From contig NC_015726.1 of assembly GCF_000219215.1 (NCBI RefSeq), forward strand, positions 1,302,001-1,366,000: DNA of 64,000 nucleotides, read 5' to 3'. The notes under the pieces are model-generated. The model was not told where the DNA came from. It saw nothing but the letters and a program-made list of their open reading frames with translations, and did not search any database. The position numbers and the translations under genes are program-made. Shown here piece after piece: positions 2,759 to 31,712 of this stretch. Within the stretch, counting starts at the first letter, position 1. Every line of letters starts with the position of its first letter. Source of the stretch: Cupriavidus necator N-1 (GTDB taxonomy: Bacteria; Pseudomonadota; Gammaproteobacteria; Burkholderiales; Burkholderiaceae).

Positions 2759-2775
2759 CCACCCGCATCAGGTGG
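2759..2775. promoter_or_regulatory. 17-bp dyad, site A (CCACCCG-CAT-CAGGTGG)
   Basis: Inverted repeat with 7-base arms (one mismatch) and a 3-base spacer, 99 bases before the acyl-CoA dehydrogenase start. Near-identical dyads occur at 5882-5898, 11341-11357 and 31696-31712. A weak -10-like TACCTT on the reverse strand lies about 35 bases downstream of the centre. An activator site for one of the adjacent MalT-type regulators is an inference. Confidence 0.5.
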
Positions 2776-2856
2776 CCGGAGACAGCAAAGAGGGGGCCGT
2801 GCTTGGGTCGCGCGGCCTTGGGGGGAGGGAGAGGGGGAGAGGGGGCGGCCGCGCCG

Positions 2857-5547
2857 TCAGTGCGGCACGTCAGGCGGCTGGGCGCCGCCGGCCTGGTCCA
2901 GCTCGCGGTCGCGGGCGCGGGCCACGGCCTCGTCGCGGCTGCTGACGCCCAGCTTGCGGAAGATGTTGCGCAAGTGCCATTTCACCGTCTCCGGCGACAG
3001 ACCCAGGCTACGTGCGATCTTCTTGTTGGGCAGGGCCTGGCCGAGCAGGCGCACGACATCGGCTTCGCGGTCGCTCAGTTGCTCAAAGCGCGCATCGGCC
3101 CGGGCCGGGCTGCCGGCGGGCGCGGCAGCCGCGGCGGTGCCGGCTTCTGTGGCTCGCGGCGGCACGGTGGCCTGCAGCCGTTCGACATAGAAGGCCAGCA
3201 CCGGGTCCAGCGTGGTGTTCGCGGCCACGCGCACGATCTGGCCGAGTGCGCCGGGGCAGGCATCGATCACGCTACGCATCAGGCCGAGCCGGTGGCCCCG
3301 GCGCAACCCTTCCAGTACATGCGCGCGTGCCGCCTCGGCGTCGCCGCGGCGCGATGCCACCACGGCCGCCAGCATGTGCATCTGCGCCACGTGGCGTTGC
3401 CAGCCGCGCGCCTCGCAGTACGCGATCAGCGCTGCGGTGCGGGCCTCGGCCCCGCACATGTCGTCATGCGCCAGGCTGAGCAGCAGGTGGGCGCGCTCGT
3501 TCACCATGTGGATGGCGTCCAGCGAGCCGCGCGGCGCGTTGCGATGGCGCGCGGCAATGGCGTCCAGGCGCGCCAGCGCCGCCTCGGCGGCAGCGATGTC
3601 GCCGCTGGCCAGGTGCAGCCGGATCTGGTTGGCCAGGCTCTGCGCCACCAGCCGGTCCAGGCGCAGTTGCGTGCCGTAGTCTTCCAGCCGCTCCAGCTGC
3701 GCGAAGGCATCGAGCCGGTGGCCGCAGATCCAGTGCGCGGCTGCCAGCACGGTGTGCACCCGCAGCACCGAGTCGGGGATCGATACCCGTTCGAGCACGT
3801 CGACCCGGTCTTCCAGCAGCCGGCGCGCGGCCTCCAGGTCGTTCTGCTCATACAGCGCCTCGCCCAGCAGGGCTGCGGCAAAGTACTCCGGCTCGGCGCC
3901 GGCGCCGCCGTGGCCCGCTTGCTCGACTTCGCGCAGCACGTCGCGGGCGACGCGCTCGGCCTGGATCATGTTGCCTTCCAGCGCATGGCTGAAGCCGATC
4001 ATGCAGCGCCCGTTGAGCATGCCGCTGGCGGTGCCCAGCAGCGGCACGCCGTCGATCACCAGCGGCGGTGCCTCGGTCTGGATGCGGCGGGCGCGCTCGT
4101 AGTCGCCCAGGTGCATATAGAGCCACGACAGCAGGTTGTTGCGCGAGCCGATAAACAGCGCCGGCATGTCGGCGGGCGCGCTCTCGATCTGCGGCAGCAG
4201 CGCCAGCGCGCCCTGGCTGTCGTCGCGCAGCAGCACCAGGGAAAAGCGCAGCAGCGCCAGCCGGTAGCGCAGCGAGGCGTCGCCCGGCGGGATGTCGGCT
4301 TCGAGCCGGTCCGCGGCCGCGGCGCACGCGTCCAGGTCGCGCGAGAACATCTGTGTGCGCAGTGCCAGCAGGCGCAGTTCGGGGCGCGACTGCACCTGGT
4401 CGGCGGGGATGGTGCGCAGCAGCCCGAGCGCCTTGCGCACCTCGCCGCGCATGATCAGGGTGTCGGCAAAGCGCTGCACCAGGTCGGCGGCGGTGTCGGC
4501 ATCGCCGGCCAGAACCGCGTGGCGCACGGCTTCTTCCAGCATGCGATGGTCGCGGAACCAGCGCCACGCCGCCGCGTGCACGGCGCGCTGCTGGGCCTCG
4601 CTGCGCGAGCGGAAACGCTGGGCCAGGGTTTCGCGCAGCAGCGGATGCAGCCGGTACCAGGATTCGCGCTCGGGGCCCTGCGCCGGGGTAATGAAGAGGT
4701 TCTCCTGTTCCAGCCGCGCCAGCAGCGCCAGAATCTCGCCTTCACCCAGCGCCTGCTCGCCCAGGGCCTCGCACAGCGACGCGGTGAAGCGTTCGCACGC
4801 GGCGGCACGCACCAGCAGCTCGGCTTCGTCCGGCGCCAGGCGCGACAGCACCTCGCGTTCGAAATACTCGGCGAAGGCGCCAGCATCCTGCACGCTGGCC
4901 TGCACGAAGCCGGTGGCAAAGGTGAGGCCGCTGGCGTTGGCCTTCTTGCGTTTCCAGTGCGCGGCAAAGAGCTGCAGGCCGGCCACCCAGCCGTCGGTCA
5001 GCTCGTGCAGCATGCGCGCATCGCGCGGGCTGATCTCGCCCAGCTGGGCGCGCAGGAAATGCTGCGATTCAGCAAGCGTGAAGCGCAGGTCGCGCTGGTC
5101 CAGCTCCAGCAGCATGCCCTGGTCGCGCAGGCGCCCGAGCGACAGTGGCAGCGCCACGCGCGAGGCCAGCACCACATGGAAATTGGCCGGGGCATAGTCG
5201 AGCAGCCACTGCAGCGGCTCCAGCACGCGCGGCGCCGTCAGGTGGTGCATGTCGTCGAGCACCAGCGTCACGTCGCGCGGGTGGGCAGCAATGCCGCGCA
5301 CCAGCGCGATGATGGCGCGCTCGACGGCTTCGTCGTCCGTGCCGCGGTCGGCCAGCATCATGGCTTCGCGCGTCAGCGCGGGGCTGACCTCGGACAGGCA
5401 GCCGAGCAGGCGGTCCAGCCAGCGCTGGCGCTCGTTGTCGGCCGGCTCCAGCGTCAGCGCGGCCATGTCAAAGCCGAGCGCCAGCAGGTCCAGCCGCCAT
5501 GCGGTCAGCAGCGCGGTCTTGCCGTAGCCGGCCGGGCCCTGCAGCAC
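2857..5547 (-). CDS. MalT-type LuxR transcriptional regulator (frame break near the 5' end)
   Basis: Large STAND-class regulator. The continuous frame gives 896 residues: Walker A ([13 protein letters not shown]) at the very start, Walker B ([11 protein letters not shown]), a long helical-repeat middle, and a C-terminal LuxR helix-turn-helix ([14 protein letters not shown]... [11 protein letters not shown]). The frame begins right at the P-loop, whereas relatives carry about 40 residues before it. Those residues are present in another frame: ATG at 5708 opens MPQTPANPP... ending VARERLLAQ, and one missing base near 5572-5580 would join it to [12 protein letters not shown]. So the natural gene is probably 2857-5708, carrying either a real frameshift or a sequence error. 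It is divergent from a second regulator of the same class and probably senses a small inducer. Confidence 0.8.
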
Positions 5548-5708
5548 GATGCAGCGCCGGCGCCGCGCGTCGGTCGCTGCGCCAGCAGGCGCTCGCGCGC
5601 GACCACGCGCGCCGCGCTGCGCAGCGAGGCCGGGCGGGACGGCTGCGAGACTGGCGCGGCGGGCTGGCTACGGGGAGCGGCTGGCGGATTGGCTGGCGTC
5701 TGGGGCAT

Positions 5709-6063
5709 GGGCGAGGCAGGACGGTGCAGGTGAGGTGCGGAGGAAATGCGGGCGAGGCAGCGCGATGCCGGGCAAAGGCGGCACGTTGTCGCGATTGTAC
5801 TGGCAGACGCGGCGCGGCGGCCAAGCCACGCCTGGCCAGCTGTCCGGGTGGCCAGGGTGAGACGCGCACAGCACCCGCAGGCCACCCGGAACAGGTGGGG
5901 AAGGGTTTGCCGGGTGTCCGGCCACAAGGCGTCGCCTTATATTCGCGCAGCGGCAAGCCCGCCGGCGAAGCGCGTGCCTTTTCATGCCTGCACGCCTTCG
6001 CCCCTTCATTGTCTTGCCGCTTCGTCCCTTTGTCCCGCTTCAATTGCGCACCGCTGGACGCCC
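5709..6063. promoter_or_regulatory. divergent regulatory region between the two MalT-type regulators
   Basis: No gene is seen here. On the forward strand a TATATT at 5938-5943 could be a -10 for the regulator starting at 6064. On the reverse strand TACAAT (5796-5801) could serve the other regulator. A 17-bp dyad lies at 5882-5898, and a degenerate relative with a 2-base spacer (CCAGCTG-TC-CGGGTGG) at 5836-5851. The pattern suggests shared or cross-regulation of the two genes. Confidence 0.45.
5882..5898. promoter_or_regulatory. 17-bp dyad, site D (CCACCCG-GAA-CAGGTGG)
   Basis: Same arms as site A with a different 3-base spacer. It sits between the divergent regulators, its centre about 50 bases upstream of the candidate -10 at 5938. 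Autoregulation by one of the two regulators is the simplest reading, but that is inference. Confidence 0.5.
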
Positions 6064-8844
6064 ATGGAAACCATACATGCTGCCGTCGCGACCCGCCTCG
6101 TGCCGCCGCGCCAGAACCGGCGCGCGATCGCGCGCGAGATCCTGCTGCAGCGCCTGCACGACGCCAGGCATGGCCGGCTGGTATTGCTGACTGCGCCTGC
6201 CGGCTATGGCAAGACCACCGTCATGGCGCAATGGCGCCACCGCCTGCTGGCCGGCGGCGCGCGCGTGGCCTGGCTCACGCTCGCGCCGGAGGACGACGAC
6301 CTGGGACAGTTCTGCGCCAGCCTCGATGCCAGCCTGCGACAGGCTGGCATCCGCGTGTGCCGGCCCGGCCCGGAGTTCGGCTTCGACCCGGCGCACCCCA
6401 CCGCGTTGCTGCCCGCGTTCGTCGCGCTGCTGGACGGCGTGCCGGGCGAGGTCTACCTGATGCTGGACGGGCTCGACCGCCTGCGGCACCCGGCCACGCT
6501 GGCCTTCCTGCAGGGCGTGCTGAGCGCGCGCCTGCCGCACCTGCATATCGTCGCCGCGGCGCGCGGCGAGGCCGGGCTGGCCCTGGGCCGGCTGCGCGCC
6601 GGCGGAGAACTGGCCGAAGCCGGCCGCGCCGAGCTGGCCTTCAGCGTTGCCGAAACCCTGGCCTTCGTGGGCCAGCGCGTGGAAGGGCGCACCGCGCGCC
6701 GGGAGAGCTCGCAAGCCGCGGTCGACACGGCGGTGGTGCTGCAGGAAGTCACCGAGGGCTGGCCCGCCGGCCTGGAGCTGGTTGCCGCATCGCTGCGCAC
6801 GGGCCAGGAACCGGCGTGGCCGCATGCGCAATCTGCCGCCCTGCATGCCTACTGGCAGGAGGAGGTGACTGCCGGATTGCCGCCGGCGTTGCTGGACTTC
6901 ATGCGCTGTCTCGCGGTGCCGCGCCGCATCCATGCTGAGCTGGCCGCGCTGCTGGCCGGCTGCGCGCAGGCACCCGCGCGCCTTGCCGAGATCGCCGCGC
7001 GCAGCCTGTTCCTGGAGGCAGCCCCGCCCGAGCCGGATGAGGTTGCCGATGGGAGCGGGCAGGGCTGGTACCGCTTCCACCCGTTGTTCCGGGCGCACCT
7101 GCTGCATGAACTGGAGCACGGCACGGGTCCCGGGCCGCATGGACTGCCCGAGTTGCAGCGGCTGCACGGGCTTGCGTCCGCGTGGCTGGACCGTTGCGGC
7201 AAGCCGGCGGAGGCGATCGGACACGCGCTGTGCAGCGGCGACTTTGGCCGTGTGCTGGCGCTGGTGGAGGCCACCGCGGCCCACTTGCCCGGCGTCAGTC
7301 CGCTGCGGGACTTCCTGCAATGGGCCGACGGCATTGCACCCGCGCGGCTGGCGTTGCACCCGGCGCTGCTGCTGGCCTCGGCATGGGCATGCGTGGTATC
7401 GGTGCGGCCGCAGCACGCCGAGCACTGGATCCGGCGCTGGGAAGCCAGTGCCGGGCCCGGCGTGGATACCGTGGTGCACGCCACGATGATGCGCGCGACC
7501 ATTGCCGCGCAGCAGGACGACCACGCGCGGGTGCAGGTGCTGCTCGACAGCCTGCAGGGCAGGCCGCAGGGCAATCCCGCGCTCGAGCAGATCCGCATGA
7601 GCCTGGCGTTGCGCTACGGCACCCTGCTGGGCTGCCAGCCCCGCTCGCGTGCGCCATACCGCTGCGCGGCGCAGCCCGGCGACACCGAGATCGCGCTGAT
7701 GGGTGCCGGCACGCTGGCGCTGACGGCCTGGATCGAGGGCAACGCTTACGAGACACTGCGGCTCGGCACGGACGTGCTGGCGGCCGCGCAGCATGCCTAT
7801 GGGCGCCGCTCGATCGCGGCCAGCCTGTGCGCGGTGGCGGTGGCTGCAGCACTGTACGAGCAGGACCGCATCGCCGAAGCCAGCCAAGTGCTGGCGGGCC
7901 GGCTGCAGACGCTGCGCACCGGCACCCCGGACGTGCTGATCGAAGCGGCGCTGTGCCATGCGCGGCTGCAATGGCTGGCAGGCGCGCGCCATGAAGCCCT
8001 GGCGGAACTGGTGGAAGCCGAAGCCATGTTCCACCGCCGCGGCCTGCCGCGCGGGGTGGCGCGCGTGGCGGCCGAGCGCCAGCGGCTGGCGCTGCTGGGC
8101 AAGGACCTGCGCCACGCGCAGCGGCTGCAGGCCTCGCTGGAGGAACTGGGCCGGCAAGATCCGGGCGATACACCGCGCGGCCAGGAAATCGCCGCTGTTG
8201 CGGCACTGGGCCGCGCACGGCTGGCGCTGGCGCAAGGCGAGCCCGCGCTGGCGCTTGCCGCGCTTGGCACCGTGCGCGGCCTGTACGTGGCTTCGATCCG
8301 GGAACCGCTGCTTGTGACTGTAGACCTGCTGCAGGCCACCGCGCTCGACGACCTCTATCGTCCCGATGAAGCGGCGCCGTATCTTGAAGCCGCGCTGGCA
8401 GCGGGCGAGCGGCTGGGGCTGGTGCGCACTTTCCTCGATGAAGGCGAACGTACCTTCGGCTTGCTGGCAGGCATGGCTGGCAGGGAGGACGGTGGCGCGG
8501 CGGGGCGCGGGGCTTACCTGGCGCGCCTGTGCGAGGCCGCCGCGATGACGGCGCCGCCGCCCGGGCCGGCCGAGCACAGTCCGGAGCCCGCCGCCGCGCC
8601 GGCTGCGTTGCCGGCCACGCTGCCGCCGGCCGACGTCGGCAAGGGCCGGCTGCTGACCCCGCGCGAGCGCGAGATCCTGGCGCTGCTGGAGCAGGCGATG
8701 TCGAACAAGCGCATTGCGCTGGTGCTCAACCTGAGCGTCGACACCGTCAAGTGGAACCTGCGGCAGATCTACGCCAAGCTCAACGTGTCGCGCCGCTACG
8801 ATGCCATCTTGGTGGCGCGCAGCGCGGCGCAGCGGCCGGGCTGA
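6064..8844 (+). CDS. MalT-type LuxR transcriptional regulator
   Basis: A 926-residue STAND/LuxR regulator. I chose ATG 6064 (METIHAAVATRLVPPR) because LVPPR...R..L about 40 residues before the P-loop is the usual start of this family; the frame is open further upstream, but in unlikely sequence. Walker A APAGYGKTT is at about residues 44-52, a Walker B-like VYLMLDGLDRL follows, then a helical-repeat sensor region and the C-terminal LuxR HTH (LTPREREILALLEQ... VDTVKWNLRQIYAKL). It is paired head-to-head with another regulator of the same type and surrounded by acyl-CoA catabolic genes, so control of those genes in response to a pathway metabolite is likely. Confidence 0.85.
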   Translation: METIHAAVATRLVPPRQNRRAIAREILLQRLHDARHGRLVLLTAPAGYGKTTVMAQWRHRLLAGGARVAWLTLAPEDDDLGQFCASLDASLRQAGIRVCRPGPEFGFDPAHPTALLPAFVALLDGVPGEVYLMLDGLDRLRHPATLAFLQGVLSARLPHLHIVAAARGEAGLALGRLRAGGELAEAGRAELAFSVAETLAFVGQRVEGRTARRESSQAAVDTAVVLQEVTEGWPAGLELVAASLRTGQEPAWPHAQSAALHAYWQEEVTAGLPPALLDFMRCLAVPRRIHAELAALLAGCAQAPARLAEIAARSLFLEAAPPEPDEVADGSGQGWYRFHPLFRAHLLHELEHGTGPGPHGLPELQRLHGLASAWLDRCGKPAEAIGHALCSGDFGRVLALVEATAAHLPGVSPLRDFLQWADGIAPARLALHPALLLASAWACVVSVRPQHAEHWIRRWEASAGPGVDTVVHATMMRATIAAQQDDHARVQVLLDSLQGRPQGNPALEQIRMSLALRYGTLLGCQPRSRAPYRCAAQPGDTEIALMGAGTLALTAWIEGNAYETLRLGTDVLAAAQHAYGRRSIAASLCAVAVAAALYEQDRIAEASQVLAGRLQTLRTGTPDVLIEAALCHARLQWLAGARHEALAELVEAEAMFHRRGLPRGVARVAAERQRLALLGKDLRHAQRLQASLEELGRQDPGDTPRGQEIAAVAALGRARLALAQGEPALALAALGTVRGLYVASIREPLLVTVDLLQATALDDLYRPDEAAPYLEAALAAGERLGLVRTFLDEGERTFGLLAGMAGREDGGAAGRGAYLARLCEAAAMTAPPPGPAEHSPEPAAAPAALPATLPPADVGKGRLLTPREREILALLEQAMSNKRIALVLNLSVDTVKWNLRQIYAKLNVSRRYDAILVARSAAQRPG

Positions 8845-8874
8845 CCGTACCGGCCACCCGGCCGCGCGCTGGCC

Positions 8875-9843
8875 TTATTCCGCGGTGGCGCCGCTGGCCT
8901 TGATCATCTGGGCGATCACGGGCTCGGTCGCGTCGAATTCGCGCCGGAACTCCGCCGGCGAGTTGCCCACCGGATCCATGGCCAGCGCATCGAGCCGCGC
9001 GCGCATGGTCGGCGACTGGATCGACGCCCGCGCTTCGGTCTCGAGCCTGGACAGGACCGCCGCCGGCGTGCCGGAGCGCGCGAACAGGCCAAGCCAGGCT
9101 GGCGAGCGCAGTTCCTGCTGCTTCAGCCCGGCCTCGGCCATGGTCGGTACGTCGGGCAGCTCCTTGATGCGCTTGTCGCCCATCACCGCCAGGGCCGTCA
9201 GCCGGCCGCTCTTGATATGCGGGCCGAGCGTGCTCATCGAGCCGATCGCCCAAGCGATGTTGCCGGCGATCATGTCCTGCGCCATCGGTGCCTCACCCTT
9301 GTAGGCCACGTGCGCCATGTCCAGGCCGCGCACCTGATTCAGGTGCGCGCCGACCAGGTGCGGGAAGGTGCCGACGCCATAGGAGCCGTAGCTGACCTTG
9401 CCCTTGTTCTTCGCGGCCCAGTCGAGAAACTGCTGCATGTTCTTTGCCGGCACGTCCCGGCTCACCACCAGCACGATCTTGCCGACCGACACCTCGGTGA
9501 TGAAGGCCAGGTCCCGGCGCACGTCGTACGGCACGTTGCGGTACAGGTGCGGCGTGTTGATCAGCGGCGAAGAGTGGCTGAGCAGGATCGTGTAGCCGTC
9601 CGGCGCGGCACGCGTAATGGCCTGCACGGCGATCACGCCCGCGCCACCGGGCTTGTTGTCGACGATGATGGTTTGCCCGAGACGCTTGCCCATGTCCTCG
9701 GCCAGCGCGCGCGCCACGGTGTCGGTGGCGCCGCCGGGCGGGCCCGGAACGACAAAGGTGATGGGACGCGACGGGTAGCTCTGGGCACCGCAGACGGCGC
9801 TCCATGCCATCACTGCCATCGCGATCAGGGACTTCATGCGCAT
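8875..9843 (-). CDS. Bug/TctC-type periplasmic substrate-binding protein
   Basis: 322 residues. Start ATG 9843 is set by GAGG 9 bases upstream, and the signal peptide (MRMKSLIAMAVMAWSAVCGA) then begins correctly. Family marks: YPSRPITFVVPGPPGGATD, the VDNKPGGAG segment, and YKGEAPMAQDMIAG. Bug proteins bind carboxylates in the periplasm, sometimes with TctAB permeases; none is encoded nearby, so this is an orphan receptor, as is common in Burkholderiales. It converges on the regulator at 6064-8844. It probably captures an organic acid that feeds the neighbouring CoA pathway (inference). Confidence 0.85.
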   Translation of the reverse strand: MRMKSLIAMAVMAWSAVCGAQSYPSRPITFVVPGPPGGATDTVARALAEDMGKRLGQTIIVDNKPGGAGVIAVQAITRAAPDGYTILLSHSSPLINTPHLYRNVPYDVRRDLAFITEVSVGKIVLVVSRDVPAKNMQQFLDWAAKNKGKVSYGSYGVGTFPHLVGAHLNQVRGLDMAHVAYKGEAPMAQDMIAGNIAWAIGSMSTLGPHIKSGRLTALAVMGDKRIKELPDVPTMAEAGLKQQELRSPAWLGLFARSGTPAAVLSRLETEARASIQSPTMRARLDALAMDPVGNSPAEFRREFDATEPVIAQMIKASGATAE

Positions 9844-9981
9844 GATGTGATACCTCGGGAAAGGGAATAGGAAACTGCGTAGCAAGAAGGGCTGCATGTG
9901 GGAAGTTATAGGATGCCCGGCACCTTGCATGCCCCCCATATCGGCTGGGCGGGATTGCCCTAGGTGCCGGCCAGTCGGGCA

Positions 9982-10017
9982 GAAAAAAAGAATGCTCCGG
10001 CACGAGGCCGGAGCAAA
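9982..10017 (-). terminator. intrinsic terminator after the CoA-transferase
   Basis: On the reverse strand the hairpin GCTCCGGC-CTCGT-GCCGGAGC is followed by ATTC and a seven-T run, about 55 bases after the CoA-transferase stop. It separates that gene from the downstream tctC-like gene. Confidence 0.8.
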
Positions 10018-10071
10018 ACACGCAGCCGGACGATGCGGCCAGGTGGAGATTGTGTTGTACCGCGCAGTCCC

Positions 10072-11235
10072 TTAGCGCTCTGCCATCAGCCCCAGGCCCT
10101 GTGCTTGCAACTGGGCCACGCCATCGGCATCGAAGCCCCAGTCGCGCAGCGCGGCGGCGCCATGCTCGCCACGCGCCGGCGCGGGCCCGGAGATCTCGGA
10201 TGGCGTACCGAGGAAGCGCGGCGCCGGTGCCGGCTGCACCACGCCAGCGACTTCGACGAAGCTGCCGCGTGCGCGGTGATGCGGGTGGTTGGGGGCTTCG
10301 CTGAATTCCAGCACGGGTGCGATGCAGGCATCGCTGCCTTCGAACACGGCGCACCATTCGTCGCGCGTGCGGGTCAGGAAGACGGCCTCGAACTGCTCGC
10401 GCAGCACCGGCCAGCCGTTGCGGTCGTACTGGGCCGGCAGGTCCTTGCCGGCAAGGCCCAGCTTGTCCAGCAGCTCGGCGTAGAAGCGGCCCTCGACCGG
10501 GCCGATCGACATGTACTTGCCGTCGCGCGTGCGGTAGTTGTCATACCAGGGCGCGCCGCCGTCGAGCACGTTGGCCTGGCGCTCTTCGCGCCAGTTGCCC
10601 GAGGCCAGCAGGCCCCAGAACACCGCGCCGAGTTGCGCAGCGCCTTCGGTCATGGCCGCGTCGACCACCTGGCCCTTGCCGCCGCGCTGCACATTGAGCA
10701 GTGCCGCCACCACGCCAAGCGCCAGTAGCATGCCGCCGCCGCCATAGTCGCCGACCAGGTTCAGCGGCGGCACTGGTGCTTGCCCGGCGCGGCCGATACC
10801 CGACAACACGCCGGACAGCGCGACATAGTTCAGGTCGTGGCCGGCACGGTCGGCCAGCGGGCCGGTCTGTCCCCAGCCGGTCATGCGCGCATAGACCAGC
10901 CTGGGGTTGAGCGCCAGCGCGGCGTCGGGCCCCAGGCCCAGGCGTTCCATGGTGCCCGGGCGGAAGCCTTCGATCACCACGTCGGCGCGTTCGACCAGCG
11001 CCAGCGCTGCGCGCTGCGCTTGTGGCTGCTTCAGGTCCAGCGTGACCGAGCGGCGGCCGCGTCCGGTGATATCCACGCGCTTGCCGGTGGCCGACTTGGG
11101 CCCCAGGTCGGCCGGCGCCGCCGGGCGGTCGACGCGCAGCACGTCGGCGCCCATGTCGGCCAGCAGCATGGCGCCGAACGGGCCCGGCCCGATGGCTTCG
11201 AATTCCAGTACGCGGATTCCGCTCAGTACACCCAT
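10072..11235 (-). CDS. CaiB/BaiF (class III) CoA-transferase
   Basis: 387 residues from ATG 11235, which has a strong GAGGAG 6-11 bases upstream; the open frame extends 14 codons further without a better site. It begins MGVLSGIRVLEFEAIGPGPFG... ADMGADVLRVDRP, the classic start of family III CoA-transferases and alpha-methylacyl-CoA racemases. The aspartate that forms the acyl anhydride is in AGHDLNYVALSG. It either transfers CoA between carboxylic acids or racemises 2-methylacyl-CoA; sequence alone does not separate these, though the close match to racemase-type starts slightly favours racemase. A 17-bp dyad lies 106 bases upstream. Confidence 0.86.
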   Translation of the reverse strand: MGVLSGIRVLEFEAIGPGPFGAMLLADMGADVLRVDRPAAPADLGPKSATGKRVDITGRGRRSVTLDLKQPQAQRAALALVERADVVIEGFRPGTMERLGLGPDAALALNPRLVYARMTGWGQTGPLADRAGHDLNYVALSGVLSGIGRAGQAPVPPLNLVGDYGGGGMLLALGVVAALLNVQRGGKGQVVDAAMTEGAAQLGAVFWGLLASGNWREERQANVLDGGAPWYDNYRTRDGKYMSIGPVEGRFYAELLDKLGLAGKDLPAQYDRNGWPVLREQFEAVFLTRTRDEWCAVFEGSDACIAPVLEFSEAPNHPHHRARGSFVEVAGVVQPAPAPRFLGTPSEISGPAPARGEHGAAALRDWGFDADGVAQLQAQGLGLMAER

Positions 11236-11340
11236 GGTGGTTCTCCTCTTGCCCAGTCCTGTTTGCATGGGACGCACCCATGCCCTTGATTGCGTTTTTG
11301 CACTGGCTGCAAGTAGACCAAAAGCGGGCGCCCCCGAGCC

Positions 11341-11357
11341 CCACCCGTATCAGGTAG
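11341..11357. promoter_or_regulatory. 17-bp dyad, site B (CCACCCG-TAT-CAGGTAG)
   Basis: Located about 105 bases before the CaiB-type gene and 100 bases before the divergent hypothetical gene at 11457, so it could serve either. It differs from site A only at the first spacer base and one outer-arm base. On the reverse strand a weak -10-like TCTACT lies about 34 bases from the centre, close to the spacing at site A. Confidence 0.5.
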
Positions 11358-11456
11358 TAGGCCGCCCACCCTTCCTGCGGTGCACAAATGCGCTCCTATA
11401 ATCGGTTCACAGCGGCCGCAGTGCAGGCCGGAAGACGAAGTGAGCCGGAGCCAGAA

Positions 11457-12179
11457 GTGAGCAATACCCAGCGCGCAATCGCATCGCCAAGGCGGACACG
11501 GCAGGCCGCACGCCTGTTGCCGGTCCTGAGCGAGCTCAGGCAGGAGGTGCGCTCGCTGAGCCGGCGTGCGCATCGTCTGGCGCTCGCCCAGGCCGGTGGT
11601 GATGACGACGCCTGCCGCCATCAGCTGGCGCAGTTGTTCGAGCGCTGGATCGAAGACGGCTCGCCACGCGCCCAGGTGGTCTGCTTTGCCTCGGCCGCCG
11701 AGTTCGGCCTGCCGCTGCACCGGCATGCCGAGCGCTGCCGCGCCGCCGCGACGTGCGACGGCTCCGATGCGGTGCGCGCCTTGTACTGGGCGGCGCTGCA
11801 CCGCACGCGCAGCCGCGTTGGCATGACCGCGCAGATGGAAGATGCGCAGGCCGCAGTGCTGCCCGCGGTGGCGCCGGCGCCACCGGCTGGCGCGCAGCTG
11901 CGGGTGCTGCCCGCCGCATCGGTGCGGCCGCTGTGCCGCCGCTGCGAGCGGCTGCGCCTGGATGCGCGCTGCGCCAATGGCCACGGTGCCTTGCGCCCGC
12001 TGGGCGACATGCAATGGCGCAGCCTGGCCGCCGGCGTGCAATGCCAGACGCGCGAGCACCAGTGCGATACCTGCAGCACGCGCTGGACCCAGCACCGCAG
12101 CGCGGCGGATCCCTTTACGGCCTGGACCATCAGCCGGCGCGGCAACGCAATCCCGGCAAGGGACGCATTGACGGCCTGA
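11457..12179 (+). CDS. hypothetical protein with cysteine-rich C-terminus
   Basis: 240 residues from GTG 11457, chosen because GGAG lies 6 bases upstream; an in-frame ATG at 11388 would add 23 residues. I do not recognise the family. The N-terminal half is Arg/Ala/Leu-rich and probably helical. The C-terminal third has two cysteine clusters (LCRRCERL with a later RCANGHG, and VQCQTREHQCDTCSTRW) spaced like Zn knuckles, so metal or nucleic-acid binding is possible. It is divergent from the CaiB-type gene across dyad B and ends at a strong terminator. No transmembrane segment or signal peptide is visible. Confidence 0.55.
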   Translation: MSNTQRAIASPRRTRQAARLLPVLSELRQEVRSLSRRAHRLALAQAGGDDDACRHQLAQLFERWIEDGSPRAQVVCFASAAEFGLPLHRHAERCRAAATCDGSDAVRALYWAALHRTRSRVGMTAQMEDAQAAVLPAVAPAPPAGAQLRVLPAASVRPLCRRCERLRLDARCANGHGALRPLGDMQWRSLAAGVQCQTREHQCDTCSTRWTQHRSAADPFTAWTISRRGNAIPARDALTA

Positions 12180-12220
12180 ATGCAATGCACCGGCCATGCA
12201 GCAATGGCCGGCAATAACAG

Positions 12221-12258: not shown

Positions 12259-12271
12259 ACTTGCGGCTGGG

Positions 12272-14011
12272 CTAGGCCTTGTGGTTCGCCAATGGAGCGC
12301 CCTGCATCTCCTGCTCCTGCAGTTCGCGCCACGCGATCTTGCCGGTGGCGGAGCGCGGCAGGCGCTCGACAAACTGCACGATGCGCGGCGCCTTGTAGGT
12401 CGCCATGCTGGTACGGCACCAGGCCAGCAACTCTTCCTCGGAAACGCCGGCGCCGTCACGCCGCACGATCACGGCCTTCACCGTCTCGCCCCGATGCGGA
12501 TCGCGCGCGGCGATCACGCAGGCTTCCAGGATCGCAGGGTGGGTATGCAGGATCGCTTCCACCTCGGCCGGCCACACCTTGTAGCCCGAGGCGTTGACCA
12601 TGCGCTTGAGGCGGTCGCGCATGACGAAGTAGCCGTCGGCATCGACGCTGGCAAGGTCGCCGGTACGGAAGAAGCGCTTGCCGTCGATCGTGATAAAGCT
12701 CTCGGCATTGGCGGCGGGCTGGTTCCAGTAGCCCAGCATCACCTGCGCGCCGTGCACCACGATCTCGCCGACCTCGCCGCGCGGCACTTCGGCCAGCGTG
12801 GCGGGATCGATGACGCGCGCGTCGACGCCGTAGGTCGGCACGCCCAGGAGCCCGGTGCGCGGTGCGGCGAGAGGGTTGGCGATGATGAACGAGGCGGTCT
12901 CCGTCAGGCCGTAGCCTTCGACAAACTGCAGCCCGTAGCGCTCCTTCATCACCCGCGCGGTGCTGTCGGGCACCGCCGCGCCGCCGCCGACCACGCAGGC
13001 CAGGCTGCTCAGGTCGAATGACTCGATATCCGGCTGCGCGAAGAACTCCACCAGCATCGGCGGCGGCGCCGCCCAGAACGTGACGCGATGGCGCGCTACC
13101 AGCTGCGCCGCGGTGCGCCGGTCCCAGCGCGGCAGCAACACGATGGTGCCGCCCATGTAGACCGGCGCATTGACGCCGTTCTGCAGCCCGAGCAGGTGGA
13201 ACATCGGCGCCACCGCCAGGAAGGTCGACTCCGCGTGCGAGCGCCGCCATAGCTGCGAACCCGCCACCGACACCATCACCGTGCGGTGCGTGTGCATGCA
13301 GGCCTTGGGCGCCCCGGTGGTGCCCGAGGTGTAGGGCAGCATGCACAGGTCGTCCAGGCCTGCGGCGCGCGGCGATGGCGTGGAGCCGGCGGCCATGGCC
13401 TGCTGCCAGTGGACTGCGCCGGCCGGCAACGCCGAGCCGGACGAGCGCTGCTGCACCCAGTCCGGAATCGCGAGGCTGTCGTCGGGCTGCGCGGGCAGGG
13501 CATCGCCATAGTGATGCACGATCACGTGGCGCAGCGGCGTGGTGCCGACCAGCGGTGCCACCTGCCCGACCAGCTCGCTTGCGGCAAACGCGGCCACCGC
13601 GCCGCTGTCGGTGACGATATGGCGTAGCTCGTCTTCCAGCAGCATGGCGTTGGCCGGCACCACCACGGCATCGGCGCGCAGGATCGCGTAGTAGGCCACG
13701 ATGAACTGCGGGCTGTTCTGGCTGAGCAGCACCACGCGGTCGCCTCGGTGCACGCCGCATGCCTGCTGCAGGTAACCGGCCATGCGCTCCACCTGCGCCA
13801 GCAGTCCGGCATAGGTGGTGGCGCCGTGGTAGAACTGGACCGCGACCTTGTCGGGGAAGCGCCGGGCCGAGATTTCAAGGTTCTCGGCCAGCGTGGTGTG
13901 CGGCATATGGAAAACGCGCGGCACGTCGCCGAGCGCCACTGCGGCATCCACCGCAAGCGGGCCAGTGGGGGCGGCGGCGACGCCTGCATCGGGCAGATCG
14001 TTGTGGGTCAT
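12272..14011 (-). CDS. AMP-dependent acyl-CoA ligase (fatty-acyl-CoA synthetase family)
   Basis: 579 residues from ATG 14011 (GAGAGGACCACC directly before it); a second candidate ATG lies at 14029. ANL-superfamily motifs are intact: LPYTSGTTGAPKACMHTH (ATP loop), GYGLTETASF, FRTGDLASVDADGYF, RLKRMVNASGYKVWP (hinge) and the C-terminal SATGKIAWREL with the catalytic lysine. It activates a carboxylic acid to its CoA ester via an acyl-adenylate, the natural entry step for this cluster. The following reverse-strand genes upstream (56-residue ORF, DUF35, thiolase-like) are closely spaced and probably co-transcribed. The chain-length class is not determinable. Confidence 0.88.
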   Translation of the reverse strand: MTHNDLPDAGVAAAPTGPLAVDAAVALGDVPRVFHMPHTTLAENLEISARRFPDKVAVQFYHGATTYAGLLAQVERMAGYLQQACGVHRGDRVVLLSQNSPQFIVAYYAILRADAVVVPANAMLLEDELRHIVTDSGAVAAFAASELVGQVAPLVGTTPLRHVIVHHYGDALPAQPDDSLAIPDWVQQRSSGSALPAGAVHWQQAMAAGSTPSPRAAGLDDLCMLPYTSGTTGAPKACMHTHRTVMVSVAGSQLWRRSHAESTFLAVAPMFHLLGLQNGVNAPVYMGGTIVLLPRWDRRTAAQLVARHRVTFWAAPPPMLVEFFAQPDIESFDLSSLACVVGGGAAVPDSTARVMKERYGLQFVEGYGLTETASFIIANPLAAPRTGLLGVPTYGVDARVIDPATLAEVPRGEVGEIVVHGAQVMLGYWNQPAANAESFITIDGKRFFRTGDLASVDADGYFVMRDRLKRMVNASGYKVWPAEVEAILHTHPAILEACVIAARDPHRGETVKAVIVRRDGAGVSEEELLAWCRTSMATYKAPRIVQFVERLPRSATGKIAWRELQEQEMQGAPLANHKA

Positions 14012-21228: not shown

Positions 21229-21260
21229 GGCCCGGGCCAGCCCGGCGACAGTGAAGTTGC

Positions 21261-24054: not shown

Positions 24055-24501
24055 ATGAAAGTCAGCGACATCCTCCAGATCAAGGGCAATACGCTCTATA
24101 CCGTGACGCCTGACACCTCCTTGCTGGTAGCCGTCCACACCATGGCCGAGCACGATATCGGCTCGCTGGTGGTGATGGAATACGGCGACCTGGTCGGCAT
24201 GCTGACCTTCCGCGAGATCATCGAGACGCTGGCCCGAAATAATGGCAACGTCGGCAGCACCAGCATCCGCAAGGTGATGGACGATGCGCCGCTGACCTGC
24301 ACCATGGAGACCGACGTCAACGAGGTCCGCCGCATGATGCTGGAACGTCACACCCGCTACCTGCCGGTGCTCGACAACCGCACGCTGATGGGCGTGATTT
24401 CCTTCTACGACGTCGCCAAGGCCGTAGTCGAGGACCAGAGCTTCGAGAACAAGATGCTCAAGGCCTATATCCGCGACTGGCCGGAAGAGCGCGCCGAGTA
24501 A
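24055..24501 (+). CDS. CBS-pair domain protein
   Basis: 148 residues made almost entirely of two CBS motifs: GNTLYTVTPDTSLLVAVHTMAEHD... VGMLTFREIIETL, and CTMETDVNEVRRMMLERHTRYLPVLD... MGVISFYDVAKAV. CBS pairs bind adenine nucleotides and act as energy sensors; no effector domain is present. It is a stand-alone gene between metY (divergent) and the MFS-PlsC gene. Confidence 0.87.
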   Translation: MKVSDILQIKGNTLYTVTPDTSLLVAVHTMAEHDIGSLVVMEYGDLVGMLTFREIIETLARNNGNVGSTSIRKVMDDAPLTCTMETDVNEVRRMMLERHTRYLPVLDNRTLMGVISFYDVAKAVVEDQSFENKMLKAYIRDWPEERAE

Positions 24502-24651
24502 TTGCGCCGGGCCGCCCGGGCTGAAGCTTCCTTCGGAAATACCCTCGGTTGGCGCCACGGGGCCGTGGCGGGGTGGCGGCCGAACCCCGGCTCCGGCACA
24601 CTAGCCGGCGTTCCCATTTCGGCGGCGGTCCCCTGACCGACCGGCCCATCC

Positions 24652-26550: not shown

Positions 26551-26577
26551 ATCCGTTGTGCGGAACCCGAATCCACA

Positions 26578-27300
26578 ATGATCACGCTCTATACCTTTGG
26601 CCCCGCCTTCGGGCTGCCCGACGCCAGCCCCTTCGTCACCAAGGCCGAGATGCTGCTCAAGCTGGCCGGCCTGCCTTACCAGGCGCGCCGCGGCAGCCTG
26701 CGGCGCGCGCCCAAGGGCAAGCTGCCCTACCTGGACGACATGGGCCGGATCGTGGCGGATTCCACCATGATCCGCTGGCATATCGAGAAGACCTACCACA
26801 TCGACTTCGACGCCGGCCTGAGCGCGGCCGAGCGCGGCATCGCCTGGGCCGCCGAGAAGCTGATGGAAGACCACCTGTACTGGGCGGTGGCGCGGGTGCG
26901 CTGGCTGGACCAGGCCAACTTCGACAAGGGGCCGGCCCAGTTCTTCCGCGGCGTGCCGGCGCCGGTGCGCGGCCTGGCCGAGCGGCTGGTGCGCTACAAG
27001 GTGCGCAAGACGCTGTGGGGGCAGGGGCTGGGCCGGCACAGCGAAGAAGACCTGGTGGCGCTGGCCAGCAAGGGCGTGACCTCGATTGCCGACATCCTGG
27101 GCGACAAGCCCTACCTGATGGGCAACGCGCCATGCGGGGCCGACGCCACGCTGTTTGCCTTTGCCGGCAGCCTGCTGTGCCCCGTATTCGACACTCCGAT
27201 CCGCACCGCGGCCGAGGGGCATGCCAACCTGGTGGCCTATATGGAGCGGATGCGCGCCGAGTTCTACCCCGAACTGGTGCTGGCAAGCGCCGCCGCCTGA
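26578..27300 (+). CDS. glutathione S-transferase family protein
   Basis: 240 residues, starting 27 bases after the MFS-PlsC gene. The N-terminal thioredoxin-like part is [33 protein letters not shown], with [26 protein letters not shown] (the glutathione-binding cis-Pro and DS region). The helical C-terminal half has [26 protein letters not shown]. It matches the metaxin-like/FAEES class seen in proteobacteria. The substrate is unknown; detoxification or a lipid-related role is possible. Confidence 0.85.
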
Positions 27301-27374
27301 GCCTGTCGGGCCGCCCGAGGCCCGCCATTGGCCTTACAATGGAAACCTTCCCCAATTCCTGTGCGGTTTCCATC

Positions 27375-28484
27375 ATGTCCGGCAACACCCTTGGCCTGCT
27401 TTTCACTGTTACCACCTTCGGCGAATCGCACGGGCCCGCCATCGGCGCGGTGGTGGACGGCTGCCCGCCGGGCATGGCGCTGACCGAGGCCGACATCCAG
27501 GGCGACCTGGACCGCCGCCGGCCCGGCACCTCGCGCCACGTCACGCAGCGCCAGGAAGCCGATCAGGTCGAGATCCTGTCCGGCGTGTTCGAGGGCAAGA
27601 CCACTGGCACCCCGATCTGCCTGCTGATCCGCAATACCGACCAGCGCAGCAAGGACTACGGCAATATCGTCGAGACCTTCCGCCCGGGCCATGCCGACTA
27701 CACCTACTGGCAGAAGTACGGCATCCGCGACCATCGCGGCGGCGGCCGCTCGTCGGCGCGCCTGACCGCGCCGGTGGTGGCGGCCGGGGCGGTGGCCAAG
27801 AAGTGGCTGCGCGAAAAGTACGGCACCGAGATCCGGGGCTACATGTCGCAGCTGGGCGAAATCGCCGTGCCGTTCACGGACTGGTCGCATGTGCCGCAGA
27901 ACCCGTTCTTCGCGGCCAATGCCGACGTCATCCCTGAACTGGAAACCTATATGGACGCGCTGCGCCGCGACGGCGACTCCGTCGGCGCACGCATCGAGGT
28001 GGTGGCCAGCAACGTGCCGGTGGGCCTGGGCGAGCCGCTGTTCGACAGGCTCGACGCCGACATTGCCCACGCCATGATGGGCATCAACGCGGTCAAGGGC
28101 GTGGAGATCGGCGCCGGCTTCGACAGCGTGGCCCAGCGCGGCAGCGTCCATGGCGACGAGCTGACCGCCGAGGGCTTCCGCACCAACAATTCCGGCGGCG
28201 TGCTGGGCGGTATCTCCACCGGCCAGGACGTCACGGTGTCGCTGGCGATCAAGCCGACGTCTTCCATCCGCACCCCGCGCGAATCGATCGACAAGGCCGG
28301 CAATGCCGCCACCGTCGAGACCTTCGGCCGCCACGACCCGTGCGTGGGCATCCGCGCCACGCCGATCGCCGAGGCCATGCTGGCGCTGGTGCTGATCGAC
28401 CACGCCCTGCGCCACCGCGCCCAGTGCGGCGACGTCAAGGTCGATACGCCGCGCATTCCCGCGCAGGCCGGCCAGACGCCTTGA
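27375..28484 (+). CDS. aroC: chorismate synthase
   Basis: 369 residues from ATG 27375 ([20 protein letters not shown]); the longer open frame upstream crosses the GST gene and is not used. Signatures: [37 protein letters not shown], the FMN/phosphate site [15 protein letters not shown], and [17 protein letters not shown]. It converts EPSP to chorismate with reduced FMN, the last common step to aromatic amino acids. It follows the GST by 74 bases and is followed 12 bases later by an MFS gene. Confidence 0.97.
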
Positions 28485-28496
28485 TCTGACCTCGCG

Positions 28497-29771
28497 TTGG
28501 CCACGCCTTTCGCGGGCGGCGGCGCCACCGGCGCCGGCCGCCCCGACTACGCCCGTTTCGGGCTCTTCTACCTTGGCTACTACGGCTACGTCGGCCTGAT
28601 TTCGCCGTACGTCAGCCTGTATTTCGCCGACCGCGGCTTCAACCCGGTGCAGATCGGCGTGCTGATGGCGAGCTTCCAGGTCAGCCGCATCGTCGGGCCC
28701 TACCTGTGGGGCTGGCTGTCCGACGTGATGCACACGCGCGTGCGCATCCTGCGCGTGAGCGCGTTCACCTCGTTGTTGGCTTTCCTGATGCTGCCGGGTG
28801 TCGGCAGCTACGGCGGCATGATGGCGATGATGCTGACGCTGAGCCTGTTGACCAGCGCGATGTCGCCGCTGGGCGATGCCCTGACCATCTCCACGCTGCG
28901 CCGCTACGGCGCCTTCGACCATAGCTACGGCCGCATCCGCATGTTCGGCTCGGTCGGTTTTATCGGCGCGGTACTGGCCGGCGGGGCCTTGTTCGAAGCG
29001 GTCGGCATGCGCGCCTTCCCGTGGGTGGCCAGCACGCTGCTGGCGATCCTGGCCGGGGTGGTGCTGACCATGCGCGACGCCGCCGCCGACGGTACGCACA
29101 CTGCGCCGCCGCGCGCCTTGCCGCTGCTGCGCCGCCCGGACGTGGCCTGGTTCCTGGCGTCAGCCTTCCTGATGATGTTCGCGCACGCCGCGCTCTATGT
29201 GTTTTATTCGCTGTGGCTGGCACAGCTGGGCTACAGCAAGTTCGCCATTGGCGTGATGTGGACCATCGGCGTGGTCGCCGAGATCGTTTTCTTCTACTAC
29301 CAGGGCCTGCTGTTCGCGCGCTATTCGCTGCGCACCATCCTGGCCGGCACCTTTGTGCTGGCGGCGCTGCGCTTCGGCCTGACCGGCTACTTTGCCCAGT
29401 TTGCCTGGCTCATGGCGCTGGTGCAGGTGCTGCACGCGGCCACCTTTGCCGCGCACCACAGCGCCAGCCTGAAGCGGTTGCAGGCCTGGTTTGCCGGGCC
29501 GCTGCAGGGGCGCGGGCAGGCGCTGTACACGGGCATTTCCTACGGCGTCGGCGGCACGCTGGGCGGGCTGGCGATGGGCTGGACCTGGAACGCGCTGGCG
29601 CCCGAGCATACGTTCGGGCTGGCCGCCATTGCCGCGGCGGCCGGCGCGCTCTGTGCGGTGATGAGCTTTCGCGCGGAAGGCGATGGCGCCGCTCAGGCCA
29701 GCGCTGCGCAGACCCGCTCGGCGATCGCCAGCGACGAGGTCAGCCCCGGCGACTCGATGCCGAACAGGTGA
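28497..29771 (+). CDS. MFS transporter (MFS_1-like)
   Basis: 424 residues. The only start compatible with an upstream in-frame stop at 28482-28484 is TTG 28497, and no good RBS is visible. Twelve hydrophobic segments; [30 protein letters not shown] and [20 protein letters not shown] resemble the HcaT/nucleoside-permease-like MFS_1 group. The last about 26 codons overlap the 3' end of the convergent FAD-oxidase gene (29693-29771), suggesting that the original stop was lost. The substrate is unknown. Confidence 0.82.
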
Positions 29772-30799
29772 ACCAGCCCCGGCACGCCGTGCACGGCGGG
29801 GCCGTCGATGCGGAAGTCTGCCGCCGCCTCATGCGGGCCGCTGATCTTGGGGCGGATGCCGGCATAGCCGGGTTGCAGCGCGCCGTCGGCCAGTCCGGGC
29901 CAGTAGCGCCGCACCTCGTCATAGAAGCCGTCGGCGTCGGCTGGGTCCACGCCGTATTCGATCTCGTCGATCCAGCGCACATTGGGGCCGAAGCGCGCCT
30001 GCCCGCCCAGGTCGATGGTCAGGTGCACGCCCAGCCCAGCCGCCTCGGGCACCGGGTAGATCAGCCGTGAGAACGGCGCGCGTCCGGCCAGCGTGAAATA
30101 GCAGCCCTTGGCGTAGTACTGCGGCGGGATATGGGCCTCGGGCATGCCGTCGATGCGGCGCGCCAGTTCCGGCGCGGTCAGCCCGGCCGAGTTCACCACC
30201 GTGCGCGCCAGCAGCGTGGTGACGCTGCCATCCTCGTTGCCGATCTCCAGCCGGATGCCGTCCGGCGTCACCGCGCCGCCCAGCACCGGCGACTGCACCG
30301 CCAGCATCGCGCCGGCGTTTTCCGCGTCGCCCAGCAGTGCGGTCATCAGGCCATGGCTGTCGACAATCCCGGTCGACGGTGACAGCAGCGCGGCATGGCA
30401 CTGCAGTTGCGGCTCAAGCGCCTGCGCCTCGGCGCGGCTGACGAGGCGCAGGTCGTCCACGCCGTTGGCCGCCGCCTTGGCGCGGATGCCTTCGAGCGTG
30501 GCCACCTGGGCCGCGCTGGTGGCCACGATCAGCTTGCCGCAGCGCTGGTGCGCCACGTGGTGGCTGGCGCAGTAGTTGTACAGCATGGCCTTGCCGCGCA
30601 CGCACAGCTGCGCCTTGAGCGAGCCGGCCGGGTAGTAGATGCCGGCGTGGATGACCTCGCTGTTGCGCGCGCTGGTGATGGTGCCGAAGGCGTTCTCGGC
30701 TTCCAGGATGATTACTTCGCGGCCCTGCAGCGCGAGTGCGCGCGCCACCGCCAGTCCCACCACGCCGGCGCCGATGACGACGCAATCCACTGTTTCCAT
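29693..30799 (-). CDS. FAD-dependent oxidase, L-2-hydroxyglutarate oxidase (LhgO)-like
   Basis: 368 residues from ATG 30799 (GAGGAAC before it). The dinucleotide fold is [20 protein letters not shown], followed by [22 protein letters not shown], a hallmark of LhgO/DAO-type oxidases, and [22 protein letters not shown], and a C-terminal [19 protein letters not shown]. It oxidises an L-2-hydroxyacid, probably L-2-hydroxyglutarate. It shares the reverse strand with the GntR gene 36 bases upstream. Its 3' end overlaps the MFS gene by 79 bases. Confidence 0.86.
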
Positions 30800-30835
30800 G
30801 GTTGTTCCTCGCTTCAATGTCTGTGTGTTCGGGAC

Positions 30836-31549
30836 TCAGGCCGTCAGGTCGAGGCGCGCGGCGGCGGCCGCAAGGTGCTGTTGCGCGGCGTTGCGGGCGG
30901 CCGCGGCGTCGCCGGCGGCAATGGCTTCGGCCAGCGCCGCATGTTCCTGGTCGGCGGCGCGCGGCGCGCCGGTCGTCACGCTCAGCCGCGAGGTGTTCTC
31001 CCAGGCGCGCTGGCGCGCGGCCAGCATCTGCTGGCTGACGAAATCGGTCAGGCCGGTAAAGCAGGGGTTGTGCGCGGCTTCCGCAATGGCATGGTGGAAG
31101 GCCATGTCGGCCGCCGCCGCGCTGGCCATGTCGCCCTGGCCGTCGGCCTGTGCCTGCATCGCCGCCAGTGCGCCGCGGATGGCATCGATATCGGCATCCG
31201 TGCGCCGCTGCGCGGCCATTTCGGCGCAGGCGGTTTCCACCACCCGGCGCAGTTCGAACAGCTGCGCCAGCGTCGGGCCGCCGTCGGGCGCGCTGGCCAC
31301 GCGCCAGGCCTGGCCGCCCGGCGTCTCCGACACATAAGCGCCCGAGCCCTTGCGCGTCACCAGCACGCCATCGGCCTTCAACTGGGCGATGGCCTCGCGC
31401 ACGATCGGCCGGCTCACGCCGAAGGTGTCGGCCAGGCTGGCCTCGGCCGGCAGGCGCGCGCCCGCGCCATAGCGGCCGGCGAGGATATCGTCGTGCAGGG
31501 TCTGGGCGATACGGCTGGCGAGGGAGGCCGGGCGAGGCAGGATGGTCAT
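30836..31549 (-). CDS. GntR-family regulator, FCD (FadR) subfamily
   Basis: 237 residues. The winged helix is PASLASRIAQTLHDDILAGRYGAGARLPAEASLADTFGVSR... VREAIAQLKADGVLVTRKGSGAYV. The FCD ligand domain has LFELRRVVETACAEMAAQRRTDAD and an MAFHHAIAEAAHNP metal-binding stretch. FCD members respond to small carboxylates. It lies directly upstream of the LhgO-like gene in the same direction, so it may control that gene. A perfect palindrome just before its start (31566-31576) is a likely own operator. Confidence 0.88.
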   Translation of the reverse strand: MTILPRPASLASRIAQTLHDDILAGRYGAGARLPAEASLADTFGVSRPIVREAIAQLKADGVLVTRKGSGAYVSETPGGQAWRVASAPDGGPTLAQLFELRRVVETACAEMAAQRRTDADIDAIRGALAAMQAQADGQGDMASAAAADMAFHHAIAEAAHNPCFTGLTDFVSQQMLAARQRAWENTSRLSVTTGAPRAADQEHAALAEAIAAGDAAAARNAAQQHLAAAAARLDLTA

Positions 31550-31565
31550 GGTTTGATATGTCAGG

Positions 31566-31576
31566 CTGTCAGACAG
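31566..31576. promoter_or_regulatory. palindrome CTGTC-A-GACAG, candidate GntR operator
   Basis: Perfect 5-1-5 inverted repeat 17 bases before the GntR start. FCD-type GntR operators commonly have a GTC-N-GAC-like core, so autoregulation is plausible. Confidence 0.45.
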
Positions 31577-31695
31577 CTTTTGCGGATTTTCGGCCTAACT
31601 TTGCGGCGCGTCAAGGTTTCCGTAGGGAGCGAATGCTACACATGCGGCCTTAGTCAATCGCCGAGGGCTTAATTTCGCCGCGCCGGCGCCGATAG

Positions 31696-31712
31696 AAACC
31701 TGATACAGGTGG
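31696..31712. promoter_or_regulatory. 17-bp dyad, site C (AAACCTG-ATA-CAGGTGG)
   Basis: Forward-strand ACCTG-ATA-CAGGT has perfect inner arms and matches the reverse complement of site B at 14 of 15 central bases. It lies 78 bases before the PilZ gene, about 20 kb away from the acyl-CoA cluster. Confidence 0.4.

Follow-up and report, generated by a model that had tools for sequence, protein, structure and literature searches.

A 17-bp dyad beside MalT-type regulator and acyl-CoA genes of Cupriavidus necator N-1 is a probable operator of the LuxR1 clade

Results

Dyads and genes at the locus

The window analysed here is a stretch of 64,000 nucleotides of Cupriavidus necator N-1 (NC_015726.1, positions 1,302,001 to 1,366,000), part of a genome of 8.48 Mb in four contigs. 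It carries four copies, A to D, of a 17-bp dyad in which two 7-bp halves flank a 3-bp spacer, near two genes for MalT-type regulators (herein LuxR1 and LuxR2) and genes of acyl-CoA metabolism. The four copies, which an earlier note on this DNA had placed at positions 2759, 5882, 11341 and 31696, were all found there. The four do not form a single class, A, B and C being real sites and D a chance-level match. Genes were called with a codon-usage caller made for this analysis rather than with a standard gene finder, and the features on which the argument turns are the following.

2759..2775, no strand: site A, CCACCCG-CAT-CAGGTGG, upstream of the acyl-CoA dehydrogenase gene; kept beside LuxR1 orthologues
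5882..5898, no strand: site B, CCACCCG-GAA-CAGGTGG, between the divergent LuxR1 and LuxR2 genes
11341..11357, no strand: site C, CCACCCG-TAT-CAGGTAG, between the CoA-transferase gene and a small unnamed gene
31696..31712, no strand: site D, judged outside the regulon; left half poorly conserved, chance-level score
1521..2660, minus strand: acyl-CoA dehydrogenase gene (Pfam), putative target of site A
2857..5708, minus strand: LuxR1, MalT-type regulator (nucleoside triphosphatase [NTPase], TPR_MalT and GerE helix-turn-helix [HTH] domains), candidate binder; open frame 2857-5547
6064..8844, plus strand: LuxR2, second MalT-type regulator, putative target of site B
10072..11235, minus strand: CoA-transferase family III gene, putative target of site C
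11547..12179, plus strand: small gene with C-terminal cysteine pairs and no Pfam match, whose true start may lie further upstream; possible target of site C

Site A lies 99 bp from the start of the acyl-CoA dehydrogenase gene, C 105-106 bp from that of the CoA-transferase gene, B about 165 bp from that of LuxR2 at 6064, and D 77 bp from that of a PilZ/YcgR-like gene at 31790. The 106 bp that the earlier note had given between B and its start codon could not be upheld, as the LuxR1 ATG of relatives maps near 5708, roughly 173 bp away from B. A position weight matrix built from 28 distinct sites including A, B and C (27 from the genus, one from Paraburkholderia, L097) yielded 22.5 bits for A, 22.1 for C, 20.9 for B and 16.2 for D. 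Because the maxima in 20 block-shuffled copies of the window ranged from 10.7 to 19.8 bits, five of them reaching 16.2, A to C stand above chance and D does not. Every other non-coding place in the window scored 10.4 bits or less, under the lowest shuffled maximum; an extra palindrome with two mismatches lies at 9330, within a TctC-type gene.

LuxR1 and LuxR2 are MalT-type regulators

LuxR1 (896 amino acids in its open frame) and LuxR2 (926 amino acids) both exceeded the cut-offs of the GerE domain (60.1 and 49.0 bits, respectively; cut-off 23.5) and of TPR_MalT, PF17874 (45.8 and 48.4 bits; cut-off 45). An N-terminal P-loop NTPase was recognized in LuxR1 from the motif GPAGYGKT together with the match of residues 2-391 to the solved MalT chain 8bob (E 2e-26). 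In both proteins, the AAA matches in Pfam fall under their cut-offs. The HTH of LuxR1 matched the NarL DNA-binding domain 1je8 (E 4e-9). Neither protein is MalT proper, scoring 224 (LuxR1) and 206 bits (LuxR2) against an NCBIfam MalT equivalog cut-off of 537. The six named loci closest to LuxR1 (67-93% identity) belong to Cupriavidus, and the window's genome holds 15 TPR_MalT matches, two of them within one gene.

The dyad accompanies the LuxR1 clade

Regions around MalT-type genes, 72 in all, were fetched with about 3.5-8 kb on either side for paralogues, up to 15 candidates per genome being scored for gene identity, and a dyad was counted if non-coding and with at most one mismatch. Twelve of 13 LuxR1 orthologues (61-100% identity) were adjoined by a dyad, with 21 sites in 20.2 kb of non-coding DNA, as were 9 of 36 paralogues (39-51% identity), with 9 sites in 64.9 kb. 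Around distant MalT-type genes (33% identity to LuxR1 or less where measured), no dyad was found in any of 23 regions (0 sites in 90 kb), and the reversed motif and one with the spacer lengthened by two gave no match in all three groups.

At the nine loci where LuxR2 neighbours LuxR1, B was present in every case (six exact, two with one mismatch, one with two). A binder other than the LuxR1 clade, namely LuxR2 or both neighbours, is suggested by the fact that LuxR2 is a MalT-type regulator adjoining B and that B is gone from all four genomes in which LuxR1 has no LuxR2 neighbour. Three of these four nevertheless retain A, downstream of the LuxR1 stop and with no LuxR2 within about 4 kb of LuxR1 (L210, L211 and L212; none in L209), dyads occur beside LuxR1 paralogues without LuxR2 nearby, and no dyad of at most one mismatch was found around six regulators 34.7-36.8% identical to LuxR2 (L054, L058, L252, L253, L255 and L256), the L054 region having one dyad with two mismatches. 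The joint loss of B and LuxR2 also fits B as the promoter site of LuxR2. LuxR2 as main binder is thus disfavoured, and we regard this alternative as unlikely. Because A outlasts the loss of LuxR2 while B goes with it, LuxR1 is the favoured binder; on these comparisons of gene neighbourhoods it is the best candidate, with B serving LuxR2 in the simplest reading.

Three LuxR1 paralogues of one genome (L219, L220 and L221, in G023) carry T or G where the recognition helix otherwise has R/K, and they lack a nearby dyad with one mismatch or none. This single residue (HL-R/K-NI versus HL-T/G-NI) was considered as a predictor of the dyad and dropped, since R/K paralogues also occur without dyads.

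Dyads upstream of acyl-CoA genes and of a third regulator

The best match to the CoA-transferase was taken from each of 20 genomes, a 73% copy in G023 being left out. All ten orthologues of 80-100% identity carried the dyad 63-245 bp upstream with one or two mismatches, and all ten genomes have LuxR1; the next ten homologues (59% identity or less) had no upstream dyad with fewer than four mismatches. A further dyad of the window's own genome, site E (C1:661669), is flanked by divergent genes that resemble an acyl-CoA dehydrogenase and a ligase. Among the 60 genomes of the genus, the 30 with such loci were examined, and a dyad with at most one mismatch was found in ten: in 8 of the 10 genomes with LuxR1 and in 2 of the 20 without. 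The corresponding Fisher p of 0.0003 over the 30 genomes is not counted as a test, there being too few independent changes on the tree. At a paralogous locus of the same genome (C3:1526212), a strict dyad precedes a third MalT-type regulator gene, LuxR3, which is followed by acyl-CoA dehydrogenase-like and thiolase-like genes (their likeness to the window genes was judged by eye).

Two spacings between dyad and -10-like box

Inspection of the DNA flanking A, B and C revealed -10-like boxes at two distances.

2729..2734, minus strand: -10-like TACCTT, 24 bp from A; TANCTTAGCG in 10 of 12 aligned loci
5938..5943, plus strand: -10-like TATATT of LuxR2, 39 bp from B
11311..11316, minus strand: -10-like CTACTT of the CoA-transferase gene, 24 bp from C; TTTGNTCTACTTG in 5 of 5 aligned loci
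11397..11402, plus strand: TATAAT, 39 bp from C on its far side, toward the small gene; from the open-spacing search described below

A gap of 23-24 bp (to TACCTT, CTACTT or TATSAT) was found at four enzyme promoters, those of A, C, E and the L222/L223 CoA-transferase. The promoters of LuxR2 (B), LuxR3 and the L222/L223 and L236/L240 paralogues have TATAAT-like boxes at 38-40 bp. By position, the operator thus stands before promoters of both kinds, those of enzymes at A, C, E and L222 and those of regulators at B, C3:1526212, L222 and L236. Across species, conservation was seen in the -10-like blocks, 23/24 bp from A and C and 39/40 bp from B, but not in the spacers. Inspected by eye, all 10 site E loci that have the dyad show a box starting with TA at the 23-24-bp spacing, as does one (L286, TAGTAT) of the 16 aligned loci that lack it. 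Shuffling of the downstream sequences (2000 trials) reached the regulator score at 38/39 bp in no trial and the enzyme score at 22-24 bp in three.

An open-spacing search for the dyad followed by TAYAAT at 25-55 bp in 398 genomes of the family, 60 of them of the genus, returned 11 hits. Nine had a spacing of 38/39 bp, all at clade regulators or site C, and two had other spacings in unrelated contexts. One of the nine precedes a regulator gene in another genus (L358), whose product, over 424 amino acids, shares 60% identity with LuxR3 and 47% with LuxR1. Since site C has the 38/39-bp spacing toward the small conserved gene, the long geometry occurs outside regulator promoters as well. The set distances to the -10-like box suggest that the dyad would be an activator site centred near -45 or near -60.

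Evidence weighed on the identity of the binder

Taken together, the comparisons make it likely that the LuxR1 clade, a group of large MalT-type (LAL) activators, acts through A, B and C as operators, in two geometries and perhaps in a cascade or feedback loop. Several observations weigh against this assignment. Within the stretch fetched, a majority of paralogues (27 of 36) were without a dyad of one mismatch or fewer, and L209 (in G024), a LuxR1 orthologue, lacked an adjoining dyad. On the tree, LuxR1 underwent six changes and the E dyad two, and the independent pairs (two concordant, none discordant, four uninformative) were too few to be tested. The E dyad is present in G037, where no close relative of LuxR1 occurs (the best HTH match has 47% identity), and in G019, where the only relatives are paralogues of 47% or less; it is missing from G059 and G023, which have LuxR1. 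The promoter sets of the shuffle test were picked after the sequences had been seen and include one orthologous pair; two of seven regulator promoters misfit, and the fit is clear for no more than four of the nine enzyme promoters. A sample of 250 genomes of the order added to the open-spacing search a single 39-bp match, with the dyad inside an unrelated gene. Finally, LuxR1 of the window is split between two reading frames near its 5' end (5547-5708), unlike the orthologues compared, which may reflect a sequencing error or a real lesion; if the latter, LuxR3 or another paralogue may therefore be the active binder in this strain.

The persistence of site E in G037, where the 17 bp are kept together with the -10-like box, would also be accounted for by an unrelated transcription factor co-regulating these genes, such as a TetR- or GntR-type acyl-CoA sensor encoded elsewhere. 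We consider this improbable, somewhat more so than binding by LuxR2, given that the dyad tracks the LuxR1 clade over the 72 regions and is absent beside distant MalT-type genes, and that in another genus the open-spacing search found a dyad upstream of a gene of the clade.

Site D adjoins a sigma-28-like promoter

The earlier note had drawn a cyclic di-GMP (c-di-GMP) effector into the regulon by way of site D.

31790..32677, plus strand: PilZ/YcgR-like gene (Pfam), not judged a regulon member
31669..31695, plus strand: sigma-28-like promoter of the PilZ/YcgR gene, TTAATTTC (31669-31676)-N11-GCCGATAG (31688-31695)

That link did not survive: D scores at chance level, its left half is variable among PilZ orthologues, and a sigma-28-like promoter ends one base before it. 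Among the upstream rows of PilZ loci (28 usable of 30, L131 and L148 being left out for want of an upstream region), the motif GCCGATA was present in 21, GTCGATA in 4 and neither in 3. When the 30 PilZ loci of the 60 genomes were scanned, the best upstream dyad had two mismatches and occurred in the window only, so that conservation as an operator was not observed; the nearest relative, G037, has three. In favour of D as a true member, with a regulon that would include the PilZ gene, one may cite a match of 16.2 bits at a distance of 77 bp, a right half (ACAGGYGGC) conserved in many orthologues, and the few rows that keep CCTGAT on the left (L126, L141, L143). The left half varies in most rows, however, the conserved half falls in the presumed start region because D, from 31696 on, directly follows the sigma-28-like element, the last base of which is 31695, and a score equal to that of D arose in a quarter of the shuffled windows (5/20). 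We therefore hold membership of D to be very unlikely and prefer to read it as a chance match adjoining a flagellar-type promoter. The resemblance to sigma-28 (FliA) class promoters bears on the surroundings of D only, not on the regulon.

A palindrome, CTGTCAGACAG, is found at 31566-31576 between the PilZ gene and a divergent GntR/FCD-type regulator gene (30836-31549). It is kept in many PilZ loci and may be a GntR operator.

Occurrence of the motif in the genome and the genus

In the window's own genome, CCACCYG-N3-CAGGTNG gave 7+7 strand matches compared to 1+1 for a reversed control; the 14 places comprise 5 in non-coding DNA and 9 within genes. Allowing two mismatches raised the counts to 393+409 versus 240+248. 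A count over the 60 genomes of the genus gave 77 places for the strict motif CCACCYG-N3-CRGGTGG and 26 for its reversal (both totals are hand sums). Of these, 75 (those of G058 and G059 being left out) and 22, respectively, were classified: 35 strict places were non-coding and 40 within genes, as against 4 and 18 for the control. The earlier note had reckoned a motif as frequent in genes as in promoters to tell against its proposal, and literally this is what the counts give. Because about 0.80 of the DNA is coding (own caller, 60 regions L207-L266) and 18 of 22 control places lie in genes, the non-coding dyads are nonetheless in clear excess over the base rate and the control. The absence of conservation in relatives, which it had also named, was not seen: A, B and C are conserved upstream of orthologues. 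A chance or codon-usage artefact of a G+C-rich genome, to which the 40 genic places and the many two-mismatch matches might point, is scarcely credible in view of the excess of strict matches over control, their share in non-coding DNA, the set spacing to -10-like boxes and the conservation of A to C, which in our view refutes it for these sites, D being the one for which chance is preferred.

By eye, 31 of the 35 non-coding strict places adjoin a MalT-type regulator or CoA-metabolism gene. Seven less obvious ones among them were resolved by Pfam as thiolase, AMP-binding (three), enoyl-CoA hydratase (two) and MaoC/mesaconyl-CoA hydratase. L089, L329, L347 (PdxA) and L354 make up the remaining four of the 35. 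At L331 (G006), a strict dyad, CCACCCGGACCGGGTGG, lies 136 bp upstream of an enoyl-CoA hydratase-family gene (552 amino acids), the start of which resembles benzoyl-CoA-dihydrodiol lyase.

Neighbouring genes of the window

295..1482, minus strand: SCP-type thiolase gene (Pfam), with a 38-bp gap to the acyl-CoA dehydrogenase gene
8875..9843, minus strand: gene for a TctC-type solute-binding protein, between LuxR2 and the CoA-transferase gene
12272..14011, minus strand: acyl-CoA ligase gene

The thiolase gene is probably in one operon with the acyl-CoA dehydrogenase gene. The cysteine pairs of the small gene behind site C are zinc-ribbon-like, and a similar gene occupies the equivalent place in G043 (L363). 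The possibility that this gene is a decayed MalT-type regulator was rejected, as tblastn gave no convincing match. Between 14247 and 17016, a ChsH2-like zinc-ribbon/OB-fold protein is encoded beside an SCP-type thiolase, an acyl-CoA ligase and a CoA-transferase III, a set that looks like a side-chain (retro-aldol) acyl-CoA pathway.

Discussion

The proposal from which this analysis started, that the dyad is the operator or activator site of a MalT-type regulator tied to acyl-CoA catabolism, finds good support for A, B and C in co-occurrence with the clade, cross-species footprints and set spacing, and falls for D and its c-di-GMP connection. The DNA itself shows the sites, how they are conserved and spaced, and that they are confined to the clade; binding by LuxR1, activation, an inducer and a cascade are what we infer from them. 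In the mechanism that we propose, a dimer of GerE-type HTH domains would bind CCACCYG-N3-CRGGTGG at its two 7-bp halves. Once switched on by a metabolite of the pathway, the ATP-binding regulator would recruit RNA polymerase from either of two positions. The dyad would be centred near -45 where the target is catabolic (the acyl-CoA dehydrogenase and CoA-transferase genes), whereas a centre near -60 would be found mostly where the target encodes a regulator (LuxR2, LuxR3 and further paralogues); a LuxR1-to-LuxR2 cascade or a feedback loop may result.

The arrangement of A to C resembles that of AlkS, the closest known system. Excerpts of two papers on Pseudomonas putida GPo1 describe AlkS as a LuxR/MalT activator of alkane degradation, the inverted-repeat operator of which precedes both the catabolic operon and the regulator promoter PalkS2, creating a positive feedback (PMC8784404, PMC3664771); its sites are given as a 20-bp inverted repeat in the excerpt of the first (PMC8784404). 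By description, the two systems would share a LuxR/MalT regulator and one operator before catabolic and regulator promoters. They differ in that the dyad here is of 17 bp (7-3-7) and does not have the 20-bp form, that its likely targets are acyl-CoA genes, and that it also precedes other regulators (LuxR2, LuxR3). No alkane hydroxylase was found among the window genes annotated here. With MalT of Escherichia coli, which binds short MalT boxes, LuxR1 has in common the domain order, TPR_MalT and GerE being present, whereas the operator here is a dyad and both LuxR1 and LuxR2 score below the NCBIfam MalT cut-off. The dyad of two 7-bp halves and the match of the LuxR1 HTH to NarL are reminiscent of NarL-type GerE/HTH proteins; NarL sites, however, are 7-2-7 and of different sequence, the spacing here is 7-3-7, and no receiver domain was seen in LuxR1. 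Searches of the open-licence literature gave, by title and opening lines of the abstract, no description of an operator for MalT-type regulators beside acyl-CoA genes.

More tentatively, and with rather less confidence than we have in the operators themselves, Cupriavidus and its relatives may possess a lineage-expanded set of MalT-type regulators that share one operator alphabet, read at about -45 for enzymes and about -60 for regulators, such that duplicated catabolic clusters would be wired into one cross-talking, self-amplifying acyl-CoA regulon in which one dyad can serve two divergent genes, each in one of the two geometries. The result for site D does away with a mistaken connection to c-di-GMP signalling. 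These genomes hold many MalT-type regulators, whose regulons a defined operator with a set promoter spacing would make predictable from sequence.

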